Assembly (NCBI RefSeq): GCF_002234535.1 | Contig: NZ_CP022521.1 | Location: 2,852,001 to 2,916,000 of the forward strand | From: Actinoalloteichus hoggarensis | GTDB taxonomy: Bacteria > Actinomycetota > Actinomycetes > Mycobacteriales > Pseudonocardiaceae | Direction of reading: 5' to 3' | DNA length: 64,000 bases | Part shown: piece after piece, positions 3,273 through 42,373 of the stretch | How the letters are laid out: the number at the start of each line of letters is the position of its first letter | Numbering within the stretch: the stretch's first letter is position 1 | Translations under genes and position numbers: made by a program | The notes under the pieces: generated by a model | Databases searched by the model: none | Told to the model about the DNA's origin: nothing | What the model saw: only the letters and a program-made list of their open reading frames with translations

Positions 3273-4211
3273 ATGACCGATGTCCCGGATCTCCGCTCCC
3301 TGCGGCTGCTCGTGGCGGTCGGCGAGCACGGCAGTCTCGGCCGAGCCGCGGCGCAGCTGCGCGTCAGCCAGCCGTCCGCCAGCAAGCGGCTCGCCCTGAT
3401 GGAGCGGCAGCTCGGGCTGGCGTTGGTGGACCGCACCCGACGCGGTTCGACGCTCACTCCCGGCGGCACGGTGGTCGTCGACTGGGCGCGCCGGGTGCTC
3501 GACGAGTTCGACGGGTTGATCACCGGGGCGCGGGCGCTGCGAGCCACGCATCGGGCGACGCTGCGAGTCGCGGCGAGCATGACCGTCGCAGAGCACCTGG
3601 CGCCCGGCTGGTTCGGCGAGCTGCGGACGGCGGCCCCGGATCTCTACGCGGGCCTGCGGGTCACGAACTCGGAGACGGTGGCGGAGCTGGTGCGCTCCGG
3701 CGGGGTCGACCTCGGCTTCGTCGAGTCGCCGTCGGCTCCGACGGGCCTGACCGCGCGCCGGGTGGGCGCCGATCGGCTGGCCGTGGTGGTCGCGCCGGGG
3801 CATCCGTGGGCCCGGCGACGTACACCGCTCGACGCCGGGGAACTGTCGGCCGCCCCGCTCGTGGTGCGGGAGGCGGGCTCCGGGACCCGGGAGACCTTGG
3901 ACCGCGCCCTGGCCAGGGCGGGCGCGGGCCCGGCGACGGTGCTGCTCGAACTCGGCTCGACCACGGCGGTGCGCAGCGCGGTCGTCGCCGGGGCAGGCCC
4001 CGCCGTGCTCAGCGTCCTCGCGGTCGCGGTGGATCTGCGGGAGGGGCGGCTGGTGGAGGTCGCGGTGACCGGTGTCGAGCTGCGTCGAACCCTGCGCGCC
4101 GTGTGGCCCGCGGGCCGTCGGCTCGTCGGACCGCCGGCCGATCTGCTGGCCATCGCGCTGCGGGCCGGGGCGCGGTCCGCGGGTCGCGCCGGGCTCTCGA
4201 CAGCCGACTGA
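3273..4211 (+). CDS. LysR family transcriptional regulator (YeiE-like)
   Basis: A 312-residue LysR-type regulator. Residues 1-65 hold the winged helix-turn-helix (LVAVGEHGSLGRAAAQLRVSQPSASKRLALME). The effector-binding domain follows from about residue 90 (LRVAASMTVAEHLAP...), with the second lobe around VLLELGSTTAVRSAVVAGAG. Length and layout are normal for the family. It is transcribed away from the YeiH-type gene, so by the usual LysR rule it probably controls that gene and itself from the shared 74-bp gap. The inducer is unknown; the best-studied relative is E. coli YeiE. Confidence 0.9.
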   Translation: MTDVPDLRSLRLLVAVGEHGSLGRAAAQLRVSQPSASKRLALMERQLGLALVDRTRRGSTLTPGGTVVVDWARRVLDEFDGLITGARALRATHRATLRVAASMTVAEHLAPGWFGELRTAAPDLYAGLRVTNSETVAELVRSGGVDLGFVESPSAPTGLTARRVGADRLAVVVAPGHPWARRRTPLDAGELSAAPLVVREAGSGTRETLDRALARAGAGPATVLLELGSTTAVRSAVVAGAGPAVLSVLAVAVDLREGRLVEVAVTGVELRRTLRAVWPAGRRLVGPPADLLAIALRAGARSAGRAGLSTAD

Positions 4212-14118: not shown

Positions 14119-15375
14119 TCACGGCGCCTGCGCGGCGCCCGCGACGGCGGACGGGGACACCGGCTCCGGGCGGATCGCGGGCCTGCGCAGAACCGGCAGC
14201 GAGCAGATCCCGGCGCAGACGGCCAGGGCCGCCGCGGCCACGAGGAATCCGCCGCGTGAGCCGAAGTGCTCGACCACCGTCCCGCCCGCCATGTTGCCGA
14301 CGGCGCCGCCGACCCCGGTGGCGCTGGCCAGCCAGGCGAAGGCCTCCGTGGCCCGCGTCGCCGAGGCCCGGCGGGTCAGTCCGTCGTAGAGCATCGTCAG
14401 GGCAGGGGCGACCATGGTGCCGAACAGCAGCAGCAGGACCGCCAGCACCGCGGTGTTCGGCGCTGTCGAGAGCAGGACGGCCCCGAGGGCGACTCCGCCG
14501 GGAAAGAGCGCGAGCGCCGCACGGCCCTTGGCTCGTGCCCCGAACACCAGTCCGCCGACCCCGGAGCCCGCTGCCACGCAGGCGAGCATCACGGCCGAGG
14601 CCGTCGGCGCGTCGGGGCCGCCGGCCCCTGCGACGGCGGCCAGGTTCACCATCACCAGCCCCGCCAACAGAGCACTCGCCGCGCCCATCATCATGATGAA
14701 TCCGGGCCCCGCGAGCCTGCCCTTCGGCGGCCTGGGCGTGGATTCGGCTGCCGATCCTTCCGCGCCACTCCGGCGGCGGGGGACTCGCTGCGGCCTGCCC
14801 GCCTCGGCGGCACGCTGTCCGCAGTACAGGAGCGTCCCGATCAGCGTGAGCACCCCCGAGCCGATCAGCGCCGCCTGGGGCCCGGCGAGGGCGACGAGCA
14901 TCGTGGTGACCATCGGCCCGACGACCAGGACGATCTCCTGCAGGGTCGAGTCGAGCGAGAAGGCGGTCAGCCGCTGCTCCGGAGAGGTCAGGGCCGCGAC
15001 GGCGGCCCGCAGCGCCGCCATCACCGGCGGCGTCGTCGCGCCGCCCACCGTGGCGACCGCCGTCAGCAGGAGCGGCTCCGGGGGCAGCAGGGCGAGTGCG
15101 ACCAGGCTGCCCGTGTAGGTCACCGAGCAGACGAGCAGCACGAGCCGTCGCCCGACGCGATCGGCGAGGCGGGCCACGGCGGGGCCCGTCACCACCGAGC
15201 CGATCACCGAGGCGCCGGTGACGAGGCCGGCGACGTCGTAACCATGGTCCTGGGTGACGAGCAGCAGCATCGCGAGGCTGGTCATGCCGGTGAACGCGCG
15301 GGCGAGGATCGAGGAGCCGAGTAGTGTCCCGACGCCAGGGGCGGAGAGCAGGTCGCGGTAACGCGAGATCGACAC
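14119..15375 (-). CDS. MFS transporter
   Basis: A 418-residue major facilitator with about 12 helices. The loop 2-3 motif appears as GPAVARLADRVGRRLVLL, near residues 65-80. A polar central loop with RVPRRRSG-like sequence separates the two halves. The first helices start close to the ATG (GVGTLLGSSILARAFTGMTSLAMLL). The family is typical of drug or sugar efflux; the substrate cannot be deduced. The gene is monocistronic. A near-perfect LacI-type palindrome lies 22 bp before its start, which suggests control by a LacI/GalR-family repressor that is not encoded next to it. Confidence 0.85.
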   Translation of the reverse strand: MSISRYRDLLSAPGVGTLLGSSILARAFTGMTSLAMLLLVTQDHGYDVAGLVTGASVIGSVVTGPAVARLADRVGRRLVLLVCSVTYTGSLVALALLPPEPLLLTAVATVGGATTPPVMAALRAAVAALTSPEQRLTAFSLDSTLQEIVLVVGPMVTTMLVALAGPQAALIGSGVLTLIGTLLYCGQRAAEAGRPQRVPRRRSGAEGSAAESTPRPPKGRLAGPGFIMMMGAASALLAGLVMVNLAAVAGAGGPDAPTASAVMLACVAAGSGVGGLVFGARAKGRAALALFPGGVALGAVLLSTAPNTAVLAVLLLLFGTMVAPALTMLYDGLTRRASATRATEAFAWLASATGVGGAVGNMAGGTVVEHFGSRGGFLVAAAALAVCAGICSLPVLRRPAIRPEPVSPSAVAGAAQAP

Positions 15376-15539: not shown

Positions 15540-16440
15540 CCGGGAGTCCGGCGCGTCGCAGGAACTCCCGAGGCCTCGGCGTCGATGTCGAGCGAGGCGG
15601 CGGCCGGGACGAGCACCTGCGACCACTCCGGCTGTGAGCGCCGCGGTGGATGGGGGCGGTCCGGGCGGACCGTCGGGATACTGCGACCGCACCGGGCACA
15701 CCCGGTGCGGTGTCGGCGTAGTGGGCGGGGTCGTAGACCGGTGACACGGTGCCCGCAACGGTGGGAGCGCGGGGCAGGACCGACGTCGAGTGTCGGACGG
15801 GTCGACCCGAGGTGAGTCGCGGGCGTGTCGATCGCGGACCGGTGACAGTGGATGCTCGATCAGTCGACGGCCCGGCGGAACAGGACGGCGCCGAGCCGGC
15901 GGGGCCGATGAGGATGGCAACGTGCCGACCGGCGGGTGGCCGCGCCGGACGGCGCGGCGGTACCGGCGGCCCGCGGGTCGATGAGGTGGCGACATCGCAT
16001 CGCAGGCAGGCCCGCCGCGTCGGCGGGTTGGCACCGAGCCCGCGCGGTCGTCGGGGATCACCACGACCCGTTCCGGCCGCTCGGCGGTCGACGACATGGG
16101 TGGCACCAGGCCTGTGGAGGCGGTGCGGATCGCGACACAGGCCGGGTGCCGACGGACTCCCCGGACGGCATCGACCCTGCGGGTCGGCGTGGATCGCGAC
16201 GCACCACCGGAGAAGCCCCAGGCGAAGCCATGGCGGGGCCGACCCCGCTCGGCGGGGTCGGACCACCGTCGGCCCATGTTGTCGGGGGTCCGCCACACAG
16301 GGGTGGCAGTCGTCGCCGAGGGGACGATCGCGACGGCCGTCGGCCTCGGTGGCGCCTGGGCGGTGCCCGGGTCCGTCGAACCGCGAAGGGCGCCCGGGTG
16401 GTCCACCCGCGGGCGCGGGCGGTGCCCTGCCGACCGCCAC
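15540..16440 (+). repeat. Degenerate CRISPR-like repeat array
   Basis: A gene-free stretch with imperfect repeats of about 38 bp spaced mostly 57-74 bp apart, each ending in GGATCGCGAC-, GATGGCAAC- or CTGCGAC-like sequence. The clearest copies are 15884-15921, 15956-15993 (ends exactly 72 bp apart), 16026-16067 and 16099-16136. The last matches the intact repeat at 41681-41718 at 29 of 38 positions without gaps, including its first nine bases, GGTGGCACC. The first matches at 27 of 38, with 19 of its last 21. Weaker copies end near 15565, 15623, 15687, 16200, 16270, 16334, 16388 and 16440. The repeat length and 72-bp period equal those of the pair at 41.7 kb. I read it as an eroded CRISPR array; no cas gene is nearby. 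Confidence 0.5.
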
Positions 16441-16451
16441 ACGGCACTCGC

Positions 16452-17201
16452 TCAGCGGGAGTGTCTGGCGATCCACTCGTCGACGCGGGTGTTGAACCAG
16501 GCGGGATGCGCCAGCGGCAGCCCGTGTCCGGTTCCCGGGTGCACCTCCCACTCGCTGCCCGGCAGATCCGCGTGCAGTCGGGGCATCGCCCGCAACAGCG
16601 CGCGCGGCTCCTTGGAACCCGCGAGCAGGAGAGCCTGACCCGGGTAGTCACGCCAGGAGTCCGGCGTCCGGAACACCGCGTTCGCACGGGTGAGCGCGAC
16701 CAGGCTCTCCTTCGACAGCGCCGCCGAGGTGCGGAGGTAGTCGTCCAGCAGTTCGTCCGGGACGAAGAGGGACTTCGCCTGGAGCTTCGCGAAGCCGGGG
16801 CGCCGGGCGAGCGGGGCCGTGACACCGACGATCCAGTCGACGACACCGGGCAGGGGAGCGCCCTGTGTGAGCGCGCTGACCACCACGACACGGTCGACGA
16901 GGTCGGGATGGGCGGCGGCAAGCGCGATCGTGATCTGGGCGCCGAGGGAGAACCCGATCACGGTGACGTCGGTGCCGTCGGGCAGGGCACGCACTTCCTC
17001 GGCGAGGGCGGCGACGACGTCCGCGCTGGTCGTGAACTCCTCGTCGCTGCTCTTGTCATGGCCGGGCAGGTCGGGGACGAGGATGCGATAGCGCTGCTCG
17101 AAGTGCGTGATCTGCGAGCTCCACATCCACCCGGCCATCCCGCCGCCATGGATGAACAGCAGGACCGGAGCATCGAGGGGGCCCGTCGTCCTGACGTGCA
17201 T
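16452..17201 (-). CDS. Alpha/beta hydrolase
   Basis: A 249-residue alpha/beta hydrolase fold enzyme of the cytoplasmic lipase/haloperoxidase-like type. The oxyanion-hole motif HGGGMAG is near residue 19 and the nucleophile elbow GFSLG near residue 103. Acidic residues for the triad lie in the second half, and the catalytic His is in GTGHGLPL near the C-terminus. A cap segment (VDWIVGVTAPLARRPGF...) lies between strands 6 and 7. No signal peptide. It stands alone between the repeat region and a 367-bp gap, so its substrate (ester, lactone or similar) is unknown. Confidence 0.82.
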   Translation of the reverse strand: MHVRTTGPLDAPVLLFIHGGGMAGWMWSSQITHFEQRYRILVPDLPGHDKSSDEEFTTSADVVAALAEEVRALPDGTDVTVIGFSLGAQITIALAAAHPDLVDRVVVVSALTQGAPLPGVVDWIVGVTAPLARRPGFAKLQAKSLFVPDELLDDYLRTSAALSKESLVALTRANAVFRTPDSWRDYPGQALLLAGSKEPRALLRAMPRLHADLPGSEWEVHPGTGHGLPLAHPAWFNTRVDEWIARHSR

Positions 17202-24597: not shown

Positions 24598-24748
24598 GGT
24601 TCGTGGTGGGCTCTCCTTGCGGATGGCGCCCGACGGAGAAGGGCGGACGCGATGTGGAGACCGTGCGACGGCGACGGGGTCTCGGAGGCGTCGCGGTGCT
24701 GATCCCGGTGGCGTCGGGTCGGCTGTCGGGTCCGCCGGGGTGGGGACC

Positions 24749-24832
24749 GCGGCCGAGCCGCGTGGTGTCTCCGCGGCCGAGCCGCGTGGTGTCTCCGCGG
24801 CCGAGCCGCGCGGGGTCTCCGCGGCCGAGCCG
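24749..24832 (+). repeat. 24-bp tandem repeat, about 3.5 copies
   Basis: Unit GCGGCCGAGCCGCGTGGTGT followed by CTCC. Copies 1 and 2 (24749-24772, 24773-24796) are identical, copy 3 (24797-24820) differs at two positions, and a half copy follows to 24832. In one plus frame it encodes repeats of AAEPRGVS. The internal GCGGCCGAGCCGC can fold back. No gene is clearly assigned here. Confidence 0.85.
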
Positions 24833-41343: not shown

Positions 41344-42373
41344 CGGTCCGACGAGCCGGTGCCGCCCGCGACTCCGTGGAGGACCCCACCGTGACGGGAT
41401 GATCACAGCCCCCTTCAGCCCCAGAGGGCCGATGTCACCCGGGGCGCGCCACCAAGGGCAGACCGCGTGCGAGTCGAATCGACAGCCGCCTTCGGTAGGC
41501 GCGGCTCTTCCGCGTCCGTTGCGAGCACACCCGCGAGCACGGCGCGGCGAGGGCGGTCGCGGCGTGGGAAACCGGAGCGTCATGAGACACGCCGAGTCCT
41601 TCCGAAGTGCCTCGCGGGCGTGTCGGTGACGAACCGGTAACTTGGGTGCGATCGACAACGCCATGCCCCTGGGAGAACAGGGTGGCACCGGTTCTCCGGG
41701 GCCGGTGAGGATCGCAACCAGGCCGATCGGGCGGCCGACTACCTCGGGATCCGGTGGCACCGGTTCTCCGGGGCCGGTGAGGATCGCAACGCAGGCTCTT
41801 TGCCGACACGCTGGCAGGTCGACACGGTGTTCCGGCCAGCCGCGAGGTCCGGCGCCTGGCGGGGTGCGGCCGCCGAGCGCCGGCTGCGAGCATCCGAGGA
41901 CGGTCGACTCCACCGGCCACCGTCCCGGTCTCGCGAGATCAGCCGAGGGCGAATCGGCCGTGGCGGCGACGGCAGTGCCGGTGATCACGCGCCGACCATG
42001 CCGACGAACTGCCGATCCATGGCACGATCGGGCGGCGACGGGGGAGCACCCGACGACGCGCACCCGCACTCGGCGGCCCGAATCGCCGCGGCCGGATCGG
42101 GCGGACGGCGCGTGCGGGCTCGCCATCGGGGCAGCTCGTCCGTCGCGCGACCCAGGTGGTCGCCGGCCGGCCCACGCGCCACGACGCGACGGGGACGGCC
42201 GCGGCCGCCGGGTCGGGACGTGACCGTGGAGTGGACGGCCGCCGAGGCCGCCCGATTCCGAGGCCGTCCCGTCGACGTCCGGTGACGGGCGTCTGGGGCA
42301 ATGACCGTGCCGAGGTCGAGACCCGCCGAACGCGGCGGACCGCGATCCGGCCGACGCTGATCGGAGCAGCACT
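41344..42373. other. Gene-poor region containing CRISPR-like repeats
   Basis: About 1 kb between the permease relic and the aldehyde dehydrogenase. Apart from the two perfect 38-bp repeats at 41681-41790 and weak flanking copies, no gene is seen. Arg-rich frames on both strands have no domains. Confidence 0.5.
41681..41790 (+). CRISPR. Two-repeat CRISPR-like remnant
   Basis: Two identical 38-bp repeats (41681-41718 and 41753-41790) begin GGTGGCACCGGTTCTCC and end GGTGAGGATCGCAAC. They enclose one 34-bp unique sequence (41719-41752), so the unit is 72 bp. The terminal GATCGCAAC resembles the conserved 3' ends of many CRISPR repeats. Weaker copies flank it: about 41625-41659 on the left and 41817-41857 on the right, which suits decay toward the trailer. 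The same repeat family occurs in worn form at 15.5-16.4 kb. No cas genes are in the window, so the locus may be orphan or served in trans. Confidence 0.6.

Follow-up and report, generated by a model that had tools for sequence, protein, structure and literature searches.

A very probably dead type I-C CRISPR array, recognised through its decayed leader, among eleven dispersed arrays of Actinoalloteichus hoggarensis

Type I-C CRISPR systems have the gene order cas3-cas5c-cas8c-cas7-cas4-cas1c-cas2 and operate with arrays that are transcribed from their leader, which also defines the point of insertion. New spacers are inserted at the leader end by Cas1, Cas2 and Cas4, the first repeat being copied, and the repeat at the leader end is normally the freshest. 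Cas5c is the nuclease that cleaves the repeat at its hairpin, so that a handle of 11 nt is left, which for the repeat considered here we take to be AGGATCGCAAC; the crRNA is carried by Cas8c, Cas7 and Cas5, and the target is destroyed by Cas3. A chromosome may hold many dispersed arrays with one common leader and repeat, as in Methanocaldococcus jannaschii, which is archaeal and has another subtype. Multi-array CRISPR genomes are already known: PMC12814883 reports that a single cas locus may be accompanied by as many as around 10 arrays, with a maximum of 23, and similar acquisition rates for arrays with the same repeat whatever their distance, the acquisition analysis being limited to genomes with 2-4 arrays.

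For Actinoalloteichus hoggarensis, the corresponding passage of the review PMC12231136 counts eight systems (five I-E, one I-B, one I-C and one III-D), and the genome set beside this count here contains an I-B-like Cas1, three Cas1 genes beside arrays with a period of 60-62 bp, RAMP genes and an I-C effector operon. The same passage is silent on dispersed or decayed arrays, and a literature search that covered few subscription journals turned up no account of such I-C arrays in Actinoalloteichus.

The DNA analysed, referred to as the window, is a stretch of 64,000 nucleotides (positions 2852001-2916000) of the A. hoggarensis genome, a single contig of 6,606,717 bases that was searched with array A and locus B of the window as queries. 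Locus B, at window positions 15783-16136 on the plus strand, is very probably a dead type I-C CRISPR array composed of a decayed leader and four degenerate repeats. The leader (15783-15884), identified by cmsearch, by nhmmer and by blastn matches to arrays A, D and E, retains the GGGCGTGTCG half-site, and the CCGATAACCT box of other leaders has become CCGGTGACAG. The 37-bp repeats begin at 15885, 15957, 16028 and 16100, in steps of 72, 71 and 72 bp. Scored as 38-mers against the intact repeat, repeat 1 (15885-15921) agrees at 28 of 38 positions, repeat 3 (16028-16064) at 25 and repeat 4 (16100-16136) at 29; repeat 2 (15957-15993) is weak, with 21 of 38, and its position is set by phase. It agrees with the copy at 15884 at 18 of 38 positions and is hardly recognisable in isolation. 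The phased repeats enclose three former spacer positions, at 15922-15956 (35 bp), 15994-16027 (34 bp) and 16065-16099 (35 bp), the first of which falls inside the 34-40 bp range of 103 spacers from related arrays. In predicted folds, an intact-like stem is seen in repeat 4 only, where the CACC/GGUG stem is kept. The first repeat of B has decayed as much as the others, and the leader is changed at conserved positions.

The decayed leader is the strongest single evidence for locus B. A profile of leader plus first repeat, built from 21 arrays in three genomes of one genus with B and K left out, matched 15798-15921 at E=2.9e-11 in an nhmmer search of the window. In the ranking of this search, the match was preceded by array A, a training member, and followed by the second repeat of A and by 16098-16136 (E=0.0045), and the profile returned nothing at E<=10 from 50 dinucleotide-shuffled windows and the reversed window. 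Additionally, the covariance model of leader and repeat (R1, cmsearch) matched 15783-15921 with 35.1 bits (E=3.4e-6 for the window, 3.6e-4 genome-wide), and blastn linked B with arrays A, D and E, and array A with B. The phase of the repeats was assessed with a softened repeat matrix chained from the first repeat of B at steps of 70-77 bp, which led to 15957, 16028 and 16100. None of 500 shuffles, nor any of the 2,061 anchors set at other points of the window, reached the score of this three-repeat chain; the score of repeat 2 by itself was equalled in 17 of 500 shuffles. Since the chain gained no score, or lost score, past 16136, B is counted as four repeats. A possible fifth remnant (16164-16200, plus strand; nhmmer E=0.39; 21 of 38 positions) is out of phase and uncertain, and it does not rise above two noise matches near 41.4 kb (E=0.14 and 0.64).

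These results bear on the explanation that GC-rich intergenic DNA merely happens to resemble the repeat. The GC bias is strong, and of the 127,926 38-mers that the two strands of the window yield, 313 agree with the repeat at 20 positions or more. The closest of all, after the two intact copies, are those at 16099 (29 of 38), 15884 (28) and 16027 (25), all within B and on one strand, the same as that of the intact pair; the profile match with its empty shuffle control and the phased score, absent from shuffles and anchors alike, argue against chance, which is given next to no credence. The preliminary description of this DNA had proposed an eroded array sharing repeat, strand and period with an intact pair at 41.6 kb, which is borne out with the leader as a further common part, and had held GC bias to be insufficient, with which the same shuffle controls agree. 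Exact recounts reproduce its identical 38-mers at 41681 and 41753, 72 bp apart, the equal distance from 15884 to 15956, the 29 of 38 matches of 16099-16136 to the intact repeat and the 19 of 21 matches of 15901-15921 to its last 21 bases. Its estimate of about a dozen units shrinks to four phased repeats and a marginal fifth, and its start at 15540 lies too far to the left, 15557-15751 being other DNA.

This other DNA, upstream of B and outside the array, comprises two abutting fragments, recognised by similarity to other, mutually unrelated genes and with no strand assigned. The first has 151 bp and shares 83% identity with the beginning of an ORF at 3230830-3230983; the second has 44 bp and shares 95% identity with a portion of an ORF at 3177365-3177407. 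Judged by eye, the parent genes may be coiled-coil-like and GGDEF-like. Both parents are present in G002, a genome of the same genus; for the joined form, no match was listed. The left neighbour of B is a transporter-like gene (14119-15375, minus strand) with weak MFS-type matches, all below cut-off, and the right neighbour an alpha/beta-hydrolase-like gene (16452-17201, minus strand) with matches likewise below cut-offs; each has a DNA match in G002. A protein-coding gene over B was considered and rejected, as the six ORFs crossing the locus (163-574 aa) had no Pfam match at E<=1. The search of the window against Rfam gave no match. Elsewhere in the window, a tandem repeat with a 24-bp unit occupies 24747-24832 (3.6 copies, 96% matches).

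The intact form of the locus is represented by array A on the plus strand of the window, with a leader at 41577-41681 (detected by the profile and by the covariance model, A being in both training sets), 37-bp repeats at 41682-41718 and 41754-41790, and a 35-bp spacer at 41719-41753. The leader of this intact pair (41681-41790) is the same as that of B. In the genome as a whole, an upstream part of about 100-130 bp and the repeat occur at eleven dispersed chromosomal places, named A to K, which carry 1 to 6 recognisable repeats each, with steps of 72-75 bp where intact. The relatedness of the two loci in the window, as first described, stands, but two is not the number of loci sharing the repeat. 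Near-identical leader-end repeats are kept in seven members of the family (A, C, D, E, F, G and H), a single intact repeat survives in array I, and the remaining three, B, J and K, have decayed. Beside the first repeat, the leader is found in 21 arrays of three genomes, and in a decayed version in B; among its features are an inverted pair CGACACGCC ... GGCGTGTCG and the CCGATAACCT box, and CCCCTG...CAGG adjoins the first repeat. A twelfth leader-like place was observed at 4070735-4070857 on the minus strand (E=8e-5), followed by decaying repeats of the GTCGCACCCGGCCTTCACGGCCGGGCCTCATTGCGGC type.

In this genome the repeat variant is mostly specific to the array, with one variant common to E and F. 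When only repeats scoring 38 or more were compared, a selection that contains none from B, J or K, repeats agreed at 36.4 of 37 positions within arrays and at 33.6 between arrays in three genomes (431 and 6,709 pairs), and at 35.7 and 32.4, respectively, in the genome of A. hoggarensis. The nine-pair (9-bp) hairpin of the repeat was examined for covariation in 17 hand-picked repeat variants, which gave 11 two-sided cells compared with 2.6 in shuffles and 0 in slid controls; counted as hairpin pairs with two-sided change, there were 3 compared with 1.8 in shuffles, a value reached by 94 of 500 shuffles. With the multi-array genomes described in PMC12814883, the family has in common one repeat class and arrays far from cas genes; it differs from them in that the repeat variants are mostly the array's own and that dead and intact arrays stand side by side.

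The repeat was also sought beside cas genes in relatives, as the preliminary description had suggested; it flanks type I-C cas genes in G002 and G021, and does not do so in the A. hoggarensis genome. In G021, two family arrays enclose the genes for Cas3, Cas8c/Csd1 (217.4 bits, cut-off 218.65), Cas1c (397.5 bits, cut-off 385) and Cas2, and in G002 two family arrays bracket those for Cas3, Cas8c (237.1 bits), Cas7 (271.4), Cas4 (90.2, cut-off 65) and Cas1c (359.7, under 385). From sequence linkage of this kind, the repeat class of B is assigned to type I-C. The likeness to type I-C systems, such as that of Bifidobacterium breve in PMC12231136, extends over the repeat hairpin, the 34-40-bp spacers, the proteins at or near NCBIfam cut-offs (Cas8c, Cas7, Cas4, Cas3 and Cas1c in G002; Cas8c, Cas1c, Cas2 and Cas3 in G021) and the Cas5c and Cas7 of A. 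hoggarensis, which lie above theirs. Unlike a typical type I-C system, A. hoggarensis has scattered arrays, none beside I-C genes, no Cas1c and a broken cas8c, and B is degenerate.

Across 120 genomes, DNA of the leader and repeat was found in 14 and Cas8c in 13, with both in 9; Cas8c is thus present in 9 of 14 repeat-bearing genomes and in 4 of the 106 others (Fisher p about 1e-7). The repeat occurs without Cas8c in G003, G011, G048, G058 and G086, and Cas8c without the repeat in G024, G040, G052 and G085; because of the former five genomes, the repeat is not everywhere tied to type I-C. The covariance model, run over 60 genomes, gave weak matches in G024 and G085, a clear one in G014 and none in G086. 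A pattern scan of a named species collection returned 15 stretches. Amycolatopsis thailandensis, Actinokineospora enzanensis and Saccharopolyspora shandongensis are among the species with more than one repeat apiece, several in each case, and other and unrelated taxa are represented by single matches.

These distributions are relevant to the explanation that B belongs to another CRISPR type (I-B, I-E, III or I-G). In G003, the repeat is accompanied by no Cas8c and by a Cas1 in a 596-aa frame, the length of which suggests a Cas4-Cas1 fusion, possibly an indication of type I-G. The other arrays read in the A. hoggarensis genome, however, have different repeats with periods of 60-62 or about 66 bp, and the repeat flanks I-C genes in G002, within the genus, so that another type is considered highly unlikely. 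It was observed that G003 and G011 have a related leader and repeat with no Cas8c match, array C18 110864 of G003 comprising 13 diverged repeat-like units; another CRISPR type may serve the arrays of these two genomes. A separate observation concerns G031, in which nine leader copies are dispersed and lack the hairpin repeat. In the five copies inspected, the leader precedes another repeat, GGCAAYCACCTCATCGGCCCGMAAGGGATCGCAAC with its variants, and the array beside the I-C cas1 has the hairpin repeat, so that one leader motif precedes two repeats in one genome. These two repeats are clearly different, with little in common beyond the GGATCGCAAC end.

A total of 103 spacers (98 distinct, 34-40 bp) were read in 19 arrays of three genomes, and no 15-mer was common to spacers of different arrays. 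Five spacers occur twice, as blocks within two arrays of G001, where duplicated blocks of three and two spacers were seen (L168 9820 onward and L146 9300-10220); growth of the G001 arrays by recombination instead of acquisition is possible. When five arrays and locus B were compared with 50,697 phage records, without a shuffled-array control, matches at E values of 1e-3 to 0.4 were obtained, among which there was no convincing protospacer for any spacer of the family. Those to phage Heffalump (E 2e-3 to 0.1) coincide with repeats, and many of the pieces point to one place. In the search with B itself, a single match lay below E=0.01, namely window 16176-16222 at E=1e-3. This segment is 85% identical over 47 bp to a holin gene of Mycobacterium phage SheaKeira, and it is not read as a spacer because it straddles the doubtful fifth repeat. 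That the spacers of B would record old invaders, as the preliminary description proposed, is thus not borne out by a clean protospacer. With no convincing phage match, the immune role of the family rests on its form and on the cas linkage in relatives.

The lack of protospacer matches, the failure to find a cas gene near any copy in the A. hoggarensis genome, and the eleven dispersed copies with a common 100-130-bp upstream part would also suit a transposable or regulatory hairpin element that only resembles CRISPR. Such an element would not account for unique 34-40-bp spacers in arrays of up to 14 repeats, for arrays that bracket I-C cas genes in relatives or for the covarying hairpin, and it is judged very improbable, more so than a CRISPR system of another type.

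The I-C operon of A. hoggarensis lies at 2961905-2967375, 46 kb to the right of the window end, in the order cas5c, cas8c, cas7, cas3. Cas5c scores 108 bits (cut-off 85) and Cas7/Csd2 246 (182); in Cas3, the HD domain reaches 66 bits (43) and the helicase 92, under its cut-off of 102. The cas8c gene is broken: it is split into two overlapping frames, the profile match skips from 121 to 284 over about 75 bases, and the middle of the profile is missing (positions about 122-283, or 133-330 in the NCBIfam profile). There is no cas1 in the operon, and cas2 and cas4 are not among the ORFs called beside it. G001 has DNA 75-76% identical to this operon in the same order, with a Cas8c match from 16 to 559 and no stop. 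The best Cas1c match in the A. hoggarensis genome is the I-B-like Cas1 with 145 bits, compared with 359 bits in G002; a Cas1c of the G002 strength is absent here, and G001 has none at E<=1e-20. Cas1 genes number four in this genome: one is closest to I-B, and the others, three weak matches, lie beside arrays with a period of 60-62 bp and are taken as I-E from that period. Ordinary CRISPR arrays, with a period of 60-62 bp or of about 66 bp, were seen at 3.69, 4.64-4.76 and 5.57-5.59 Mb near other cas1 and RAMP genes. In genome-wide searches for Cas1, Cas1c, RAMP and Cas8c genes, no family array was found within 24 kb of a Cas1, RAMP or Cas8c gene, the closest being H, about 25 kb from a Cas1, and none adjoins the I-C operon of its own genome.

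The cas damage invites the explanation, advanced in the preliminary description, that B died through loss of the I-C cas genes, upon which repeat homogenisation stopped. The damage itself stands, with no Cas1c and a broken cas8c, but decay as its simple consequence does not agree with seven of the eleven arrays in the same genome having near-identical leader-end repeats. Likewise, G001 has no Cas1c match and yet an array of 11 near-identical repeats. Death of B through cas loss is therefore regarded as unlikely. As leader-end repeats are near-identical in seven arrays, I retains one intact repeat, and three (B, J and K) have decayed, B appears to have died separately, probably earlier.

Comparison with G002 indicates how array sites differ within the genus. 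The gene pair that surrounds B flanks a different sequence in G002, without an array; the sequence at that site has no blastn similarity to B at E<=1 and no repeat-like 37-mers, so that an intact counterpart of B was not seen. G002 has no array at the sites of A, D, I or K either, and neither an insertion boundary nor a target duplication can be read at these four sites or at that of B, the intergenic sequence being too different. Sites C and G were also located in G002, which has nine leader loci according to the covariance model. At 2478908, the G002 counterpart of J has five intact repeats, whereas J is decayed, and beyond the first repeat the two have 12-mers in common only within repeats. 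The neighbourhoods of F/H and E match those of G002 arrays at 4171-4174 kb and 4206 kb, with a common segment several kb wide in the case of E. No spacer is common to J, F/H or E and their G002 counterparts. Most of the leader tree of 21 arrays is without support, 1 of its 18 inner branches being starred, and it only hints at a grouping of H, F and E with the G002 arrays at 4171, 4173 and 4206 and of J with that at 2478. These differences in presence and in spacers suggest that array loci are gained or lost between species and that old ones change their spacers.

In the working model, one I-C operon would act in trans on arrays distant from cas genes, both filling and using them. The I-C operon of G002, which has adaptation genes, probably fills and uses distant arrays in this manner, which agrees with the distance-independent acquisition that PMC12814883 describes for arrays with the same repeat. 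In A. hoggarensis, with no Cas1c and a broken cas8c, the arrays are probably a fading archive. Since both the leader and the first repeat of B are decayed and its seven sisters look fresh, B was probably out of use before the operon broke; it would have lost function first, and its repeats would then have drifted. A further and rather doubtful idea is that the leader (100-130 bp) together with one repeat is a proliferating unit that seeds I-C-type arrays at new sites, where the seeds would acquire their own spacers in trans, homogenise their own variant and die, with B, J and K as late stages. Given that one leader motif precedes two repeats in G031, the leader and not the repeat would then be the part that is propagated and recognised.

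A degenerate array may thus be recognised through its leader once its repeats have blended into the surrounding DNA, which is useful for annotation. In a single genome, arrays of one repeat class and with a common leader range here from those that look alive through half-dead ones to dead ones, alongside a sister species that has I-C adaptation and effector genes, and the multiplication of arrays within a chromosome and the rate at which they die after loss of acquisition or interference would thereby become testable by comparison.
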